Below, piece after piece: positions 2,859-25,645 of a stretch of 36,282 bases of DNA. The stretch comes from Dehalococcoidia bacterium (GTDB taxonomy: Bacteria > Chloroflexota > Dehalococcoidia > Lucifugimonadales > UBA1127): positions 1-36,282 of the forward strand of contig JAPYRQ010000018.1 of NCBI GenBank assembly GCA_029936935.1, read 5' to 3'. The position numbers and the translations under genes were made by a program. Below the pieces are notes generated by a model. The model searched no databases. It was not told where the DNA came from and saw only the letters and a program-made list of their open reading frames with translations. Numbering within the stretch: position 1 is the first letter of the stretch; each line of letters begins with the position of its first letter.

Positions 2859-4151
2859 ATGGCTACAAGCACTGGACGAAAGACCTATAACGTTGGTGGA
2901 GTACTGCTGAACCAGCCGTTCAAAATCCGACGACTGGGGCACTTCGGGTTCAACGTCTACAAAATCGATGAATGCCTGGAGTTCTATCGCGACTTCCTGG
3001 GCTTCAAGGTCTCCGACGAGAACGACTTCAAAGCCAACCCTGACCCGAAGATTCAGGAGTGGCTAAAGGACGTGGAGAGCGGCAAGGGTTACTTCATGCG
3101 CTATGGCACGGATCACCACGCATTCGTGTTGTTCAACGCTGCGGCAATGATCGCCATGGCGGAGGGTCGCGCTGCCGAGAACGGCAACTCCACGGAGGGC
3201 ATGACCGGCGCCCACGGCATGAACATCAACCAGATAACGTGGCAGACGGGCACGCTCTCTGAAGTCACGGGCGCGTACCACTACTTCATGGAGCGCGAGA
3301 TTCCCATTATGCGGGTGGGCCGCGATATGCCGGGGAGCAATTGGCACGTTTACGCCTACGACCCCGATGGCCACATCAACGAGCTGTACTACGGCATCGA
3401 GCAGGAGGGCTGGAACGGTCGCAGCAAGCCACGCGATATGTACGACCGCCGTTTCCGCGAGGAGCCCACGTTGCCCCAGATGCCTGAAGAGGACGAGGTT
3501 GATGAGGCCATCGCCAAGGGGACTGATATCCACTCGGGCTATCGCAGCGACGAGCCGCTACCAGCTAACTTCGATGTGGGCGGCGTCCTTCTTGGCAGGC
3601 CTTTCAAGATTACCAAGATTGGCCCCGTGAACCTCTTCGTGAAGGACCTTGGGGCATCGCTGGACATGTACACGGACGGCCTGGGCTTCACCCTCACGGA
3701 GACCGTGGAGTACAAGGGACACAAGGTCGCATTCCTTCGCAATGCTGCTGAACACCACACGTTGGGCCTCTTTCCTGAGGAGCTGCGCAAGGAGCTTGGC
3801 TGGCCGGACGTCTCCACCTGCATGTCCTTCGGTATTGAGCTGGGGAGCTACCAGCAGCTGAAGGACGCTGTCTCCTTCCTGAAAGAGCGAGGCGTGTCGT
3901 TCATGGACCTGCCTGCTGAGCTACACCCCGGCATTGACTACGCGGTGTACGCCCTAGACCCGGAAGGCAACGGCATCATGCTCTACTACTACATGGAACA
4001 GCTTGGCTGGGAAGGCAAACCCCGACCTGTCGAGCTTCGACGTAAGGTCGATGCCGCTGCCAGCACCCACAACGTGGAAGCGTGGCCAGAGGCGCTGGAA
4101 CCGATGTCGGACACGTACGTCGACCAGGTGTTCCAAGGCCCTCTCGGCTAG
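2859..4151 (+). CDS. Two-domain VOC (extradiol dioxygenase/glyoxalase-like) protein
   Basis: The protein has 430 residues and ATG at 2859 follows GGGAGGGG. It contains two vicinal-oxygen-chelate domains. The first (residues about 22-185) starts LGHFGFNVYKIDECLEFYRD and ends DPDGHINELYYG. The second (about 248-395) starts GPVNLFVKDLGASLDMY and ends DPEGNGIMLYYY. Domain 1 keeps a plausible 2-His-1-Glu metal site: His28, His86 or His87, and the Glu of NELYY. In domain 2 the first His is Asn and the Glu is Met, so it probably does not bind metal. This resembles catechol 2,3-dioxygenase-like proteins that cleave aromatic rings, but the substrate cannot be named. It follows the ArsM-like gene by 33 bp and precedes a YciI-like gene, suggesting one catabolic operon. 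Confidence 0.85.
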   Translation: MATSTGRKTYNVGGVLLNQPFKIRRLGHFGFNVYKIDECLEFYRDFLGFKVSDENDFKANPDPKIQEWLKDVESGKGYFMRYGTDHHAFVLFNAAAMIAMAEGRAAENGNSTEGMTGAHGMNINQITWQTGTLSEVTGAYHYFMEREIPIMRVGRDMPGSNWHVYAYDPDGHINELYYGIEQEGWNGRSKPRDMYDRRFREEPTLPQMPEEDEVDEAIAKGTDIHSGYRSDEPLPANFDVGGVLLGRPFKITKIGPVNLFVKDLGASLDMYTDGLGFTLTETVEYKGHKVAFLRNAAEHHTLGLFPEELRKELGWPDVSTCMSFGIELGSYQQLKDAVSFLKERGVSFMDLPAELHPGIDYAVYALDPEGNGIMLYYYMEQLGWEGKPRPVELRRKVDAAASTHNVEAWPEALEPMSDTYVDQVFQGPLG

Positions 4152-18525: not shown

Positions 18526-19413
18526 TTATATGTGCAACCACGCGCCGAACAACCAGGCTCCGCCGGCCATTGCCCATGTACCGAACCACACCATCTCGTC
18601 GTCTGGTATCACGTCCAGACCAAAGACGGCTAGGGGGATTGCGAAGACCACGCCCACACTCAGCGTCGGAGCTATGACCAGCTTCAACTGCGCGTACAGG
18701 CTGGTGCACCGGCCTAAAGCAATCCACGCAGCAACCGCTAGGAACGGCAATATTGCCAGCAACGCCTGCGGCTCGTGCACCAATGACCGCTGCACATCCG
18801 ACGTAGCCAACGCGTCGAGCGAGTACCCGTTTGCCGACCCCGCTGCAATCCACATCGATACCACCCACGCCACGAACGCCGCTTGCAGCAGTATCCCTAC
18901 GTTGAAGAAAACGCGACCCGACTCCACCCATCGCCCGTGGAAGACATGGTCGGTGCTTACTACGGCGGCGCGCGTCAGCAACACCGTCATCAACCCACCG
19001 ATGGCGTCGCGACCGATGTCTTCTATCGACGCTGTCCTGCCGGACACGAAGCTCTGGTGTACTTCGTCGATGACGCCGTAGACCATTGCCACGCCAAACG
19101 CTGTTCCAACGACCACTGGCCATCGCCAGGTGAAGGTGCTGCTAATGGCCAGGTAGGTGAGGCCCGTCAGGATGCCAAACGCGGTTCCGTGGAATATCCA
19201 CTGGATGCTCCACTTTGGGAAGATACCCAGGAACTTGGACGCGGAGCCAATACTCTCCGGCGACGAGTTCTGGGAGATGTAGAAGATGAGGCCCATCCAC
19301 GCAGCCACCGCACTCCAGGCACCTATCGATAGCGGGACGCGGTAGGTGTGGAGCGCATCTTTGATGCTGGGGTCTGGGCGGTTGAGTGAGGTCAACTCGA
19401 TTTGCTCCACCAC
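18526..19413 (-). CDS. VanZ-like integral membrane protein, coupled to reductive-dehalogenase-like gene
   Basis: The protein has 295 residues with a GTG start at 19413. The first half is a VanZ-like domain: AWMGLIFYISQNSSPESI in TM1, then HGTAFGILTGLTYLA, and the characteristic DEVHQSFVSGRTASIEDIGRDAIGG. The second half has four or five further hydrophobic segments not typical of VanZ, so it is about twice the size of a VanZ domain. VanZ-like proteins have no proven general reaction. The start lies inside the last 22 bases of the upstream reductive-dehalogenase-like gene, in a different frame, so the two are translationally coupled. It could be a membrane partner of that enzyme, but this is only an inference from position. 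Confidence 0.75.
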   Translation of the reverse strand: MVEQIELTSLNRPDPSIKDALHTYRVPLSIGAWSAVAAWMGLIFYISQNSSPESIGSASKFLGIFPKWSIQWIFHGTAFGILTGLTYLAISSTFTWRWPVVVGTAFGVAMVYGVIDEVHQSFVSGRTASIEDIGRDAIGGLMTVLLTRAAVVSTDHVFHGRWVESGRVFFNVGILLQAAFVAWVVSMWIAAGSANGYSLDALATSDVQRSLVHEPQALLAILPFLAVAAWIALGRCTSLYAQLKLVIAPTLSVGVVFAIPLAVFGLDVIPDDEMVWFGTWAMAGGAWLFGAWLHI

Positions 19414-20561
19414 CAGCTTGGGGCTTTACGCTTATCGGCACCAAGCCAGTTGTTGATCGCAAGCATCAGCCTGCGTAACTGCGTAGAAGCTAGTCTCAAC
19501 CACACTCGATTGCCTACTTTGGTGAAGTCGCGGTTGTAGGGGCAACCCCGGATGCAGATGGAACACTCGGCGTTCTGATTGGCCCAAAACCCAAAGCACC
19601 TCTCGGCATCCGTCGTCCACTTCACTACTCCCTGGATGTTCGATTGGTTGTGCACCTCACTCGATGGCGAGCCAAACGCAATGGCCTTGGGTGGGCAAGC
19701 GTCGGCACACTTACGGCAGCCGTTGCAGAACGCTTGGACGCCCAGACTTCGTGGCGAGTCATGGTCGAGAGGAAGGTCGGTGAATATCTTGCTGATGCGC
19801 ACCCTCGGCCCAAACTCCTTGGTGATGAGCAGCCCGTTTCTGGCGTACTCGCCCAGGCCGGCCTTGATGGCGTAGGGAATGGAGAGGGCTGTGTCGTTCT
19901 GGCTGGGGACGGCGCGGTAGCCCAGGTTCTGGATGTATTGCGCAAGGGCAAGGAGGACAGCTGCGTCTTGCGAGTAACCAAGGCCTGTAGCCGCGCCGCT
20001 CAACGCCGATGGCACGGTGGCGATGAGGCTCTGATCCATCTTCTTAGCAATGACAATGACGTTCGGGAGGTCTGTCGGCAGATCTGCGGGCTTTGCCGTG
20101 CCTTGCTTCCGACTGTACCTGTGGGAGTACACCCAGCGTTCATCGTAGTCGGTGACGCCAATCAGGTCTGCGCCAAAGAGAGCCGCAACACGTTTGAACT
20201 CCCTGGTGGTGGCTGCGGTGTCATCCACGGCAACTTTGGCATCAGCCGGTGGTTCCTGGAGGGTGAACGTGTCCAGAAATCCCTCGCGTCGGTCCTCATC
20301 TTCCTTCAACCCCGTGAAGATGTCAGACACGTGCCATGCGGCGTTGCGCAGGGCGTAGTCGCGTTGGGTGAAGCCGTCCACCGGACGGACATCGCCGGAA
20401 GGGTCACCGTAGGACCGGAAGAACCGCTCCGATTTCTCACTCCGCACCGTCTCGTCCCAATTGGCACGATTGAAGATATCATCGCGCTGGCTGAACCGCT
20501 GAAAATTCGGCAGCACTGGCAACACGATAGGTTCACGGTCGTTTCCTGGGCCTTCGCTCAT
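19392..20561 (-). CDS. Reductive-dehalogenase-like corrinoid iron-sulfur protein (no Tat signal)
   Basis: ATG at 20561 gives 389 residues. The sequence follows the reductive dehalogenase (RdhA) plan: NFQRFSQRDDIFNRANWDE and FTQRDYALRNAAWHVSD at the N-terminus, a cobalamin-type domain with YIQNLGYRAVP and AGLGEYARNGLLITKEFGP, then KIFTDLPL, and two ferredoxin-like cysteine sets: FCNGCRKCADACPP, and a second set with ERC, ten spaced residues, then CSICIRGCPY. RdhA removes halogens by reduction, and epoxyqueuosine reductase QueG is its relative. The FTDLPL motif and second cluster layout favour RdhA over QueG. There is no twin-arginine signal, so it should be cytosolic, unlike respiratory RdhA; a catabolic role is possible. 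No ribosome-binding site precedes the start, which lies 12 bases after the tRNA terminator. Confidence 0.8.
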   Translation of the reverse strand: MSEGPGNDREPIVLPVLPNFQRFSQRDDIFNRANWDETVRSEKSERFFRSYGDPSGDVRPVDGFTQRDYALRNAAWHVSDIFTGLKEDEDRREGFLDTFTLQEPPADAKVAVDDTAATTREFKRVAALFGADLIGVTDYDERWVYSHRYSRKQGTAKPADLPTDLPNVIVIAKKMDQSLIATVPSALSGAATGLGYSQDAAVLLALAQYIQNLGYRAVPSQNDTALSIPYAIKAGLGEYARNGLLITKEFGPRVRISKIFTDLPLDHDSPRSLGVQAFCNGCRKCADACPPKAIAFGSPSSEVHNQSNIQGVVKWTTDAERCFGFWANQNAECSICIRGCPYNRDFTKVGNRVWLRLASTQLRRLMLAINNWLGADKRKAPSWWWSKSS

Positions 20562-20573
20562 GGGGGTAGCATA

Positions 20574-20602
20574 ACAAAAAAGCCCCCTCACTGAGGGGGC
20601 TT
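20574..20602 (-). terminator. Intrinsic terminator of tRNA-Asp
   Basis: On the minus strand AAGCCCCCTCA and TGAGGGGGCTT (20592-20602 and 20580-20590) form an 11-bp inverted repeat followed by a T-run at 20575-20581. It lies after the tRNA and directly before the start codon of the reductive-dehalogenase-like gene, so that gene depends on read-through or its own undetected promoter. Confidence 0.85.
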
Positions 20603-20880: not shown

Positions 20881-21603
20881 CTACTGGCCCTTCTCCATCT
20901 GCTCCCGCTGCCACGCGTAGTCCACTTTGTCGTCGTAGAACTTGTCTGGGTGCTCAACAGCCCAAATCTGCTTACGGATGTTGAAGTTGTCTGGCTCAAT
21001 CGCCACACCCTCGCGCCATGCGGCCATCGCCTCGTCCGTCTTGCCGTCCTGGTAGAGCGCCAGGCCACGGCGGAAGTGCTCCAACGCCTCGGGGTGCTTG
21101 ATGACCTTCTCGGCTTCAGCTTCGGAGAGCGTCGACAGCTCATCGAGGGATGGTTCTGCCCCCCAAGACTCCGCCAGCGCGAGGTGCTCCGGCCTGTGGA
21201 TATCGAAGCCACCGCGCTTGATGTAGCGCACCGTACCCTGCTCGTCCACGAAGACGGCATTGGGGATGGCTTTGCAGCCCAGCGCCTGACCAACACGGTT
21301 TTCAGCGTCCACCACTGTGGTGAAGGTTGTACCAGCTTTGTCCGTGTAGCGTGTGGGTAGGTCCGGGCCCTGGGCATCAACTGCTATGGAAAGGAACTCC
21401 ATACCCTGGGGGTTGTGCTTCTCGTAGTACTCCTGCCAGACCGGCAGTTGTTCACGGCAGGCTCACCATGACGCCCACATGAACAGGATGTGCTTCTTGC
21501 CCCGGAAGCTGGCCAGCGATACTTGCTCGCCAGTCAGACTTGGGAGCGTGATGTCAGGAATCTGATCGCCCACGTCAATATAGGCTGCTGGCTGTGTAGC
21601 CAT
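20881..21603 (-). CDS. Thioredoxin/TlpA-like protein with C-terminal TPR-like region, candidate selenoprotein (TGA at 21463-21465 read through)
   Basis: ATG at 21603, after AAGGGGGG, opens a 240-residue frame with a single in-frame TGA (codon 47) before TAG at 20881-20883. The protein starts GDQIPDITLPSLTGEQVSL, typical of the AhpC/TlpA-type thioredoxin fold, then HILFMWASW-[TGA]-ACREQLP. The redox site WAxWCxxCR of TlpA proteins thus has TGA in place of the first Cys. Cys49 and the CREQLP tail match the family; only one residue lies between, giving UxC rather than CxxC. The cis-proline segment KAIPNAVFVDEQG follows. Residues about 170-235 form a TPR-like tail (GLALYQDGKTDEAMAAWREG). A SECIS-like hairpin follows the TGA (separate entry). 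No signal peptide is visible, so it is probably cytosolic. A conventional annotation would call only a truncated ORF from 21402. Confidence 0.85.
21426..21465 (-). promoter_or_regulatory. Candidate bacterial SECIS hairpin after in-frame TGA
   Basis: On the minus strand CTGCC (21443-21447) pairs with GGCAG (21433-21437) around the 5-nt loop GGTCT. The loop starts 20 nt after the TGA and begins with GG. Two more pairs can form below an AA/GA internal loop. The spacing and loop Gs match the general description of bacterial SECIS elements. Confidence 0.65.
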
Positions 21604-21662
21604 GCTGTTCCCCCCTTGAAGTGATTGGTGTGTGTCAGGCCGACGGCCTGCTTTTAGAATGC

Positions 21663-21890
21663 TCAGCCAAGGCCATGGTACCCAATGACCACTTCTTCGC
21701 CGATGAGCATGACGGGGGTGATGGGTTCACCGTTGGAGAGCTTGAGCAGCGCCTCTTTGGCGCCTTCAACCTCGTCGATGTCGATCTTGGTATATGTCTT
21801 GCCTTCATCGTCCATCTCTGACATTGCTGCGTCAGAGTAGCTGCAATCCTTTTGCGTGTAGATAGTTATCGTTGCTGTTTCCTGGGTCAC
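21663..21890 (-). CDS. Glutaredoxin-like protein (CSYS motif)
   Basis: This 75-residue protein begins with GTG at 21890 after GAGGTG. It has the glutaredoxin/NrdH-like fold: beta strand ITIYTQ, an active-site segment DCSYS with Cys16 and Ser19 (the second redox Cys is Ser, so it is monothiol), a helix, TYTKIDIDEVEGAKE, the cis-Pro segment ITPVMLIGEEVVIGYHGLG. It may pass electrons or bind a metal, but the usual glutathione/NrdH determinants are not all clear. The candidate selenoprotein gene follows 59 bases downstream on the same strand, so the two may form one redox operon. Confidence 0.75.
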   Translation of the reverse strand: MTQETATITIYTQKDCSYSDAAMSEMDDEGKTYTKIDIDEVEGAKEALLKLSNGEPITPVMLIGEEVVIGYHGLG

Positions 21891-22446: not shown

Positions 22447-22755
22447 ATGAATTACGTGAATGTCTGTGCCTCACAACTTATGACTGAAGATCGTAACGTA
22501 GGAAAATACCCCGTGAGCGTGGCCTCAAACCTCACGGATGTCGCCGAACATCGCCTAAGGGCGTTTGAGACGGCTGGTTTGTTGGAGCCTCAAAGAACAG
22601 AGGGTGGCACCAGACTCTACTCGGACGCTGACCTAGAATTGATTCAGAGGATTGCTGAGTTGGCTGATAAAGGTATCAACTATGCAGGTATCCGCGAGGT
22701 CCTGGAAATCATCGGTGACGATGAGGAGACCGGAGAAGCTTCGGACTCAGAATAG
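22447..22755 (+). CDS. MerR/HspR-like transcriptional regulator
   Basis: The protein has 102 residues from ATG at 22447; ATG 22480 is an alternative, and neither has a clear ribosome-binding site. Residues about 20-80 form a winged helix of the MerR/HspR type: YPVSVASNLTDVAEHRLRAFETAGLLEPQRTEGGTRLYSDADLELIQRIAEL, with the typical GLLxPxRTxGGxRxYS wing. No metal-binding Cys pair is evident and the tail is acidic, which fits HspR-like heat-shock repressors better than metal-sensing MerR. It may regulate the upstream small gene. A strong bidirectional terminator follows. Confidence 0.8.
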   Translation: MNYVNVCASQLMTEDRNVGKYPVSVASNLTDVAEHRLRAFETAGLLEPQRTEGGTRLYSDADLELIQRIAELADKGINYAGIREVLEIIGDDEETGEASDSE

Positions 22756-22822: not shown

Positions 22823-23029
22823 CTACATATCCATCTTCTTTTCGCCAGAGAGATAGGCTACCGGCTCTTTGGCGAATGCTACCCTGCAGCCTGGCCCGCA
22901 GAAGTAGTACACGGTTTCGCCAAACATGTGGGTGCCGCCGGGGGACTTCTTCACGCCCACAGTCATGCCGCAGACCGGATCTAACGCCGTCTCGTTTTTA
23001 CCGAATAATCCGAGAATCTTTGGACTCAT
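22823..23029 (-). CDS. YHS-domain protein
   Basis: This 68-residue protein has ATG at 23029 after GGAGGAAG. The YHS domain is seen as DPVCGMTV near the start and YYFCGPGCRVAFAKEPVAYLSG at the end, with three cysteines that can bind metal. Such domains are found in heavy-metal ATPases and small metal-handling proteins. It lies 111 bases downstream of the copper ATPase gene on the same strand, so a role in copper binding or detoxification is probable. Confidence 0.88.
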   Translation of the reverse strand: MSPKILGLFGKNETALDPVCGMTVGVKKSPGGTHMFGETVYYFCGPGCRVAFAKEPVAYLSGEKKMDM

Positions 23030-23140: not shown

Positions 23141-25645
23141 TCAACCGCCTGGCTTGAAACGCTTTAGTCGCAGTGAGTTGGTGATGACGGACACGGAACT
23201 GAATGCCATTGCTCCCGCCGCCAGCATGGGATTCAGGAACCCAAGTTCACCGAACATGAACTCCAGACCGCTTGGCACGCCGTTCCCCCACGTAGTGAAC
23301 ACCGGATAGAACGCACCTGCTGCGATGGGGATCAGGGCCGTGTTGTAGAAGAATGCCCAGAACAGGTTCTGTCGGATCGTGCGAATGGTTGCGCGACTCA
23401 AGTTGAACGTGGTCAACAGACCATGCAGGTCGCCGCGCAGTAGCGTCACGCCTGCCGATTCCATCGCTACGTCGGTGCCTGTGCCCATCGCGATGCCGAT
23501 GTCCGCCTGGGCCAGCGCGGGTGCATCGTTGATGCCATCGCCCACCATTGCCACGGCCAGTCCCTCGGCTTGCAGCTCCTTGATTTTCACCGACTTGTCC
23601 TGTGGCATCACGTCAGCCACTATGCGGTCGATGCCTACTTGCTTCGCGATGGTCTCCGCCGTTTTACGATTATCGCCCGTTAGCATCACCGGTTCCATCC
23701 CCATCGCCCGGAGCTTAGCCATGACCTCTGCCGCTTCCGGCTTGATGGTGTCTGCGATGGCGACGATGCCAATCAAAGTGTCATCTGCGGCGATGTACAC
23801 CGGCGTCTTGCCGCTTGTTGCCAGGGCTTCTGTTTCAGCAGCGGTCTCTCCCAACCCAACATTGCGCGATGCCATCATGACGCTGTTGCCAATGGCGATC
23901 ATGGTGCTGCCAACCTTGGCGACGATGCCCTGACCGGAAATCGCTTCGAAGTCGGTTGGCTGTTCAAGCTCGATGGTGCGCTCTTCGGCTGCCGTGACCA
24001 GCGCTTCACCCAGGGCATGCTCGGAGCCTCGCTCTGCGGACGCGGCCAGTCGAAGCACTTCGGCTTCGGTGACACCTATCGGGATGATGTCCGTCACGGA
24101 TGGTTTGCCGACCGTCAGCGTGCCGGTCTTGTCGAGCACGATGGTTTGGATTTCACCCGCTCGCTCCAGTGCTTCCGCGCTCCGTATAAGCACGCCGTTT
24201 GCCGCGCCGATGCCCGTGCCAACCATGATGGCCGTTGGTGTGGCCAATCCCAGGGCGCAGGGGCAGGCGATGATGAGCACTGCTACGAACGTGAGCATGG
24301 AGTAGGTCAACGAGGGCGATGGTCCAAACGTGAACCAGAGTATGAATGCCAGAGAAGCTACGCCGACGACTATAGGCACAAAGTAGGATGCCACCAGGTC
24401 GGCCATCTTCTGGATAGGTGCTTTGGAACTCTGGGCCTCTTCAACCAATCGAATGATTTGGGAAAGCGCAGTGTCTGTGCCCACCTTGCCCGCGCGGAAT
24501 GTGAAGCTGCCGGTCCTGTTGGTGGTTGCGCCGAAGACATGGGCTCCAGCTGCCTTCTCCACCGGGAGACTCTCGCCCGTGAGCATGGACTCGTCTACCT
24601 CAGAGGCGCCGTCGATGACCGTGCCGTCTACGGGGATATTTTCACCAGGTCTGACAACAATGAGGTCGCCGACAAATACTTGCTCAACGGGGATGTCTTC
24701 TTCCTTCCCATCGCGCAAGACCCGCGCCGTCTTGGCTTGCAGCCCCATGAGTCGGCGTATGGCTTCGGAGGTCTGGCCCTTCGCCTTCGCTTCAAGATAT
24801 CGCCCGAGTAGGATGAGACCAATGATGATGGCAGCAGTATCGAAGTAGACTGCCGATTCCACGCCTCGCGCTTCAAAGAAACCCGGAAATACGGTCACAG
24901 CAGCACTGAACGCGTACGCGGTGCCCGTGCCTATCGCGATGAGCGTGAACATGTTGGACGTGCGGTGGCGAACGGCGCCGAGGCCTGAGGTGAAGAAATC
25001 CCAGCCAGTCCAGAAGATGACCGGCGTTGCCAGTGACCAGAGAGTGTAGTGGTTTTGCAGGAAGTCCGGCATCCAGGGAAACAGGTCCTCCAGCGTCCCC
25101 ATCAGGATCACCAGGCCAAGGGTCAACGAGACCGCCAGCTTGTTCCGAAGCTCACGTACCTCGTGGGTCTTGGACAACCGCTCGATCTCCTCTTCGTTCG
25201 TGGTACCGTCGCCAACCACCCCTGACATGATGTAACCGGCGTCCTCCACGGCCTTGCGAAGTGAATCCAGCGAGACCACACCCGGCATGAACTCTACAGA
25301 GGCCTTTTCCGTGGCAAGGTTGACCTGGGCTTTCTGCACTCCGGAAACGCCACTAAGCGCATGTTCCACGTGCATGATGCATGCGGCGCAGGTCATCCCA
25401 CCAATGGTGATGCTGGTCTTCTCCATAGGGACACTCTGGCCCGCGGCCTCAACTGCGGCGCTTAACGCGTCAGGCGTGGGCGGGTTCTTCGATGACACTG
25501 CCAGTGTGGCTTCGGCGGTTACCAGGTCCACGTGAGCGCTCTCCACGCCAGGAACGCCCCGCAGCGCCTGGGCAACACCTTCCGCACTGGCGTCGTCCGT
25601 CAGCCCTATGATGGGGAGTATCAATGCATTTTGTGTTGTCGTCAT
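23141..25645 (-). CDS. copA: Copper-translocating P1B-type ATPase
   Basis: The protein has 834 residues with ATG at 25645. Two heavy-metal-associated domains lie at the N-terminus. The first (residues about 5-70) lacks the CxxC pair (it reads GLTDDAS) and the second (about 78-142) has GMTCAAC with Cys86 and Cys89. The ATPase core has eight membrane segments, the CPC metal site in [13 protein letters not shown] near residue 460, the phosphorylated Asp in DKTGT near 502, a TGES phosphatase motif, and [16 protein letters not shown]. It exports monovalent copper, probably from the cytosol. CsoR is upstream and the YHS protein downstream on the same strand, consistent with a copper-induced operon. 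Confidence 0.93.

Follow-up and report, generated by a model that had tools for sequence, protein, structure and literature searches.

In the stretch of DNA analysed here (the window, 36,282 nt from a Dehalococcoidia bacterium), a gene for a TlpA/ResA-like protein was found in which, judging from the comparison of sequences, the UGA at codon 47 is very probably read as selenocysteine (Sec). A disulfide-oxidoreductase mechanism is proposed for the product with rather less assurance, as the likelier of the functions considered. The frame, its conservation, the covariation of the SECIS element, the Sec machinery, the fold and the gene neighbourhood were all computed, and the features are collected in Table 1. 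The reading frame runs on the minus strand from an ATG (21601-21603) to a TAG (20881-20883), and the only internal stop is the TGA. The protein reads MATQPAAYIDVGDQIPDITLPSL...ILFMWASW-U-ACREQLPVWQ...KAIPNAVFVDE..., so that the redox motif is WASW-U-A-C-R. It had originally been predicted, from the letters of the window, that the TGA stands at the first redox Cys, that a start codon and a ribosome-binding site lie upstream, and that the frame continues to the cis-Pro motif of the family; the analysis bore out all three, and the Pro of the IPN motif (P114) was invariant in 35 homologues.

Table 1. Features of the selenoprotein gene and of its neighbours in the window
Feature	Position	Strand	Basis
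Coding sequence of the candidate selenoprotein, 240 aa with Sec at codon 47 and a TAG stop	20881..21603	-	Frame, homologues, purifying selection
Shine-Dalgarno-like AAGGGGGG, purine-rich	21610..21617	-	Sequence
In-frame TGA predicted to be read as selenocysteine, first redox position of UxC	21463..21465	-	Homologue conservation
Cys49 (TGC), putative resolving Cys of UxC	21457..21459	-	Invariant in 35 homologues
AhpC-TSA/Redoxin domain (TlpA/ResA-like thioredoxin fold), aa 11-128	21220..21573	-	Pfam, predicted structure
TPR repeat, aa 173-206, then family motif IRKQIW..HPxxF...DxxWQ	20986..21087	-	Pfam, C-terminal alignment
Bacterial SECIS apical hairpin CTGCC-GGTCT-GGCAG (RNA CUGCC-GGUCU-GGCAG), 5 bp, loop GGTCT	21433..21447	-	Covariation at synonymous sites
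Glutaredoxin-like gene, 75 aa, CSYS motif, GTG start	21663..21890	-	PF00462, 9.8e-9
MerR regulator	22447..22755	+	Domain match
YHS-domain small protein	22823..23029	-	Domain match
Heavy-metal P-type ATPase (HMA + E1-E2 ATPase)	23141..25645	-	Domain match
4Fe-4S protein, weak match to reductive dehalogenase subunit	19392..20591	-	PF13486, 1e-5

Relatives were collected by a scan of the genomes of about 85,000 species with an alignment of the last 75 residues only, so that the redox site itself was not used in the query. Seventy-one loci were returned, five of which were unreadable at the redox codon (the contig ends earlier in four, and the frame is unclear in L124). The redox-position codon was TGA in 66 of the 66 readable loci, which is far beyond chance, and Cys was found at this position in none of them. 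The carriers belong to at least five bacterial phyla (the carriers being from Chloroflexota, Thermomicrobiales, Bacillota, Armatimonadota, Planctomycetota and others). The residue between Sec and Cys was variable among these 66 relatives (R in 31, G in 20, A in nine, V in three, S in two and Q in one). In 400 genomes of the phylum, searched separately, all strong homologues with a readable site had TGA as well, the sole strong match without a stop (G294) being a fragment that begins after the redox site. Eight orthologues were found when 151 genomes around a Bacillus carrier were searched, and all eight had TGA. The long sister proteins discussed below likewise have TGA at the redox site. Gly, Arg or a bare stop at residue 47, which the original prediction had named as signs against it, did not appear in the alignment of homologues. 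Plasmids and viral contigs were both searched, and no relatives were found in them.

Were the TGA a genuine stop, or a lesion in a pseudogene, whatever lies past it would be a remnant or a re-initiation product, and an open reading frame of 173 residues with a downstream ATG (20881-21402) is indeed available for this. Such a reading is considered highly improbable in view of the TGA kept at all 66 loci across phyla, the covarying hairpin described below and the strong purifying selection past the TGA. In a comparison of the window gene with a 95%-identical gene of an uncultured Dehalococcoidia bacterium (L055), dN/dS was 0.073 before the TGA and 0.033 after it, with 57 synonymous versus 10 non-synonymous changes in the latter part.

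Two relatives were irregular. L067 (3491-4216) reads LPIWQ, lacks the G of the SECIS loop and has an in-frame stop past the redox domain; it may be a decaying copy or an assembly error. L122 (Bacillus sp. FJAT-27251, near 3595) has a second in-frame TGA at a conserved Trp position a few codons before Sec (MUSSWURC), where the near-identical gene L120 has Trp. Some copies of the family may thus be decaying or misassembled.

The GG-loop hairpin which the original prediction had placed after the TGA is real, and covariation across 65 sequences supports it strongly. In the window gene a hairpin with G in its loop follows soon after the TGA, as in bacterial SECIS elements; it starts 15 nt past the TGA and its loop GG lies 20 nt past it. 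An identical GGTCT lies 18 nt after the TGA of E. coli fdhF, which was compared here. No SECIS-type match was obtained in Rfam. In single-sequence folding, the hairpin of the window itself had an unremarkable energy (z of -0.45 and -0.69); as this gave no significance, covariation was used instead, and the evidence for the SECIS element is therefore comparative. The closing pair (columns 19-33) was CG in 49 of the 65 aligned sequences, UA in 11 and UG in five, and was never broken (C-A), with a Fisher p of 4e-9 that is not corrected for kinship; none of 500 shuffles equalled it. One of these columns falls on the first position of a Leu codon and the other on the third position of a Gln codon, and therefore switches between C-G and U-A leave the protein unaltered. 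On a maximum-likelihood protein tree, about eight changes were counted for the UA state, of which at least seven are forced by well-supported branches. When all column pairs of the 54-nt region were compared, the strongest covariation was at 18-34 and 19-33. In addition, the Leu codon of the stem was CTG or TTG in 66 of 66 genes, while these two codons made up 43% of the Leu codons in the remainder of these genes. The pair beneath the closing pair, columns 18 and 34 (window 21448 and 21432), covaried most of all (G-C, C-G and U-A), and they also held an A-G mismatch in about 15 rows, the window among them.

The original prediction would have been undermined by a missing sel system. The window genome was found to encode a tRNA-Sec(UCA), with the anticodon tca, together with SelA (555 bits), SelB (341 bits) and SelD (380 bits); its SelD (L051) has an in-frame TGA of its own. 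Among 37 carrier genomes, SelA was detected in 36 and tRNA-Sec in 36, and at least one of the two in every genome. SelB was dropped as a marker of co-occurrence in the 400-genome search of the phylum, where every genome gave weak matches to other GTPases. The tRNA-Sec model RF01852 was positive in 129 of the 151 genomes around a Bacillus carrier. A suspicion that it had matched tRNA-Ser in Bacillaceae was abandoned and the tRNA-Sec result was kept, because SelA agreed: among 30 non-carrier genomes checked, the four without tRNA-Sec were the four without SelA. Presence and absence have little power in this group, since Sec is so common there. Decoding of the TGA as a standard residue (Trp or Gly, under a variant genetic code), or through a suppressor, is given even less weight than a true stop. 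Nothing specific favours it, apart from the TGA at a Trp position in L122, and it is opposed by the adjacent upstream glutaredoxin-like gene, which uses TGA as a normal stop, by the alignment of the site with the redox Cys of TlpA/ResA, and by the Sec system of the carriers.

In five Bacillota (Terrihalobacillus, Paenisporosarcina, two Planomicrobium and Gracilibacillus), the gene order is selB-selA-selenoprotein, with the gene 66-120 nt behind selA and selB preceding selA. The identities of SelA and SelB at the Bacillota loci were confirmed by NCBIfam in examples, and the Bacillota copies all form one clade (100/99). Three further peroxiredoxin-like ORFs whose active-site codon is TGA (TSGU, TGGU and GGNU) were also noticed in the window genome (L003, L004 and L007; C49, C63 and C56 of G000), which looks selenoprotein-rich.

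The structure prediction that had been suggested as a check gave a confident ResA fold with a helical tail (AlphaFold2 with 35 sequences, pLDDT 91.9, pTM 0.90). Residues 8-150 of the model matched ResA 4nmu with Z of 19.3 (1.9 A over 139 residues) and the DsbE-like 3gl3 with Z of 18.9. The Pfam match to AhpC-TSA had an E-value of 1.8e-19. TPR_2, as one repeat, was matched by 25 of 35 members; the window protein (8.1e-6) is just below Pfam's whole-protein cut-off. Invariant residues in the 35 homologues were W43, S45, W46, U47, C49, R50 and P114 in the redox domain and R210, K211, Q212, W214, P219, F222, D228, W231 and Q232 in the tail. A thioredoxin fold with a Pro at the cis-Pro position is thus present, and P114 is presumably in the cis state. 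Reading of the N-terminus of the window protein revealed no apparent hydrophobic signal segment or membrane anchor, and a cytosolic location is therefore likely.

The main alternative keeps Sec and assigns it to a peroxidase of the peroxiredoxin or glutathione-peroxidase kind, in which Sec47 would reduce hydroperoxides and be recycled via Cys49. The Pfam domains AhpC-TSA and Redoxin span both groups, GSHPx was weakly matched by 11 of 35 members, peroxiredoxins were found at Z of 16-18 in the structure comparison, and the other Sec peroxiredoxin-like proteins of the window genome are consistent with it. The best structural matches were ResA and DsbE, however, and the PxxxT/SxxC pattern of peroxiredoxins is not kept, as the catalytic Thr/Ser at -3 is not conserved, position 44 holding A, G or S, and W43, S45 and W46 are invariant instead. 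A peroxidase is accordingly regarded as unlikely, with perhaps a quarter of the weight. For the preferred disulfide oxidoreductase, we infer the insertion of Sec in the cell, the direction of the redox reaction, its substrate and the roles of the partner and tail as follows. SelB and tRNA-Sec would translate UGA 47 as Sec, directed by the hairpin. The selenolate of Sec47 would attack a substrate disulfide or a similar oxidised bond, and Cys49 would resolve the intermediate to give a Sec-Cys selenenylsulfide. In the clade of the window this bond would probably be reduced by the upstream glutaredoxin-like protein and, in clades having one, alternatively by the CGPxGC tail that the protein itself carries. 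The TPR tail probably serves to dock a partner protein.

The glutaredoxin-like gene ends 59 nt upstream of the selenoprotein gene and is probably its partner in the same operon. In nine relatives this small gene, with a C-x-Y/F-S site, is conserved 62-166 nt upstream. Other conserved neighbours (dehydrogenases etc.) were considered as partners and set aside, as they look like lineage synteny. A C-terminal CGPxGC tail (CGP[DE]GC), possibly a built-in redox pair, is present in 37 relatives (e.g. L075, L087 and L092) and in none of the nine bearing the glutaredoxin-like gene, a pattern that kinship may explain since the tails are mostly of one clade. Both the glutaredoxin-like neighbour and the tail are limited to some clades, and it is reasonable to suppose that the former in trans and the latter in cis share the job of reducing the Sec-Cys bond.

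The original prediction had called the architecture unusual. The UxC spacing, with its invariant Cys49, and the TPR-like C-terminus on which this was based are real; the novelty was overstated, as UGC-motif Prx/TlpA-like selenoproteins have been on record since the GOS survey of 2008, the table of which lists 46 'Prx-like (UGC-containing)' selenoproteins (PMC2398784). Later tables name the group 'UGC-containing Prx-like' (PMC9312934) and 'UGC-containing TlpA disulfide reductase family' (PMC13188914). For the entire pfam00578 group, the GOS table also gives 855 Cys homologues (PMC2398784). These are likely to be ordinary CxxC relatives. By the tabulated descriptions, the group shares with the window protein the pfam00578/TlpA thioredoxin fold and Sec at the first redox position, followed by one residue and Cys. 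The window protein has UAC rather than the literal Sec-Gly-Cys, and Gly occurs in the 20 relatives counted above. The TPR tail, the glutaredoxin-like neighbour and the linkage to the sel operon are not mentioned in the passages of these sources that describe the group (PMC2398784, PMC9312934, PMC13188914).

A closer likeness is to NF041054 of NCBIfam (WAxxUGC_long, ResA-like WAxxUGC motif-containing protein), with which the window family shares the TGA-encoded W-x-S-W-U-x-C-R motif and a related C-terminus with xRQxW. Members of NF041054 have a long N-terminal extension, whereas the match of the window family begins at model position 83. The window protein (145.5 bits) and other members of its family (136-151 bits) fell below the cut-off of 300 bits, and L032, a true member, scored 569 bits. 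With ResA, TlpA and DsbE (CcmG) the protein shares the fold (Z of about 19 to ResA over 139 residues), the cis-Pro position and the Arg after the second Cys. Unlike them it has UxC for CxxC, with Sec47 in place of the first Cys and Cys49 in place of the second but one residue nearer, an added TPR tail and no apparent signal peptide or anchor. Its kind is thus already known, and the window protein is a shorter sister variant of the NF041054 type. The variant is marked by the variable UxC, the TPR tail, the conserved neighbours and the lack so far of a Cys form, and is apparently selenium-only. No curated NCBIfam model covered the window family above its cut-off.

In many families of bacterial selenoproteins there are also Cys homologues, so that Sec looks optional. 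Selenium seems indispensable to the present family, because its relatives in at least five phyla all keep the TGA. A tentative proposal, which we hold as possible rather than probable, is that the family exists only as a selenoprotein, with no natural Cys form and a UxC site that demands selenium chemistry; that one clade has a dedicated glutaredoxin and another the CGPxGC tail; and that in some Bacillota, where the gene would be co-transcribed with selB-selA, the protein is perhaps a client responsible for the retention of the Sec system there. Being widespread, with an unusual U-x-C spacing, links to selA and selB and Sec at all readable loci, the family offers a direct test of the abilities that set Sec apart from Cys. 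The window gene will be broken up or cut short by gene callers that take TGA for a stop. Elsewhere in the window, the YHS-domain protein, the P-type ATPase and the MerR regulator together look like a metal-efflux cluster.
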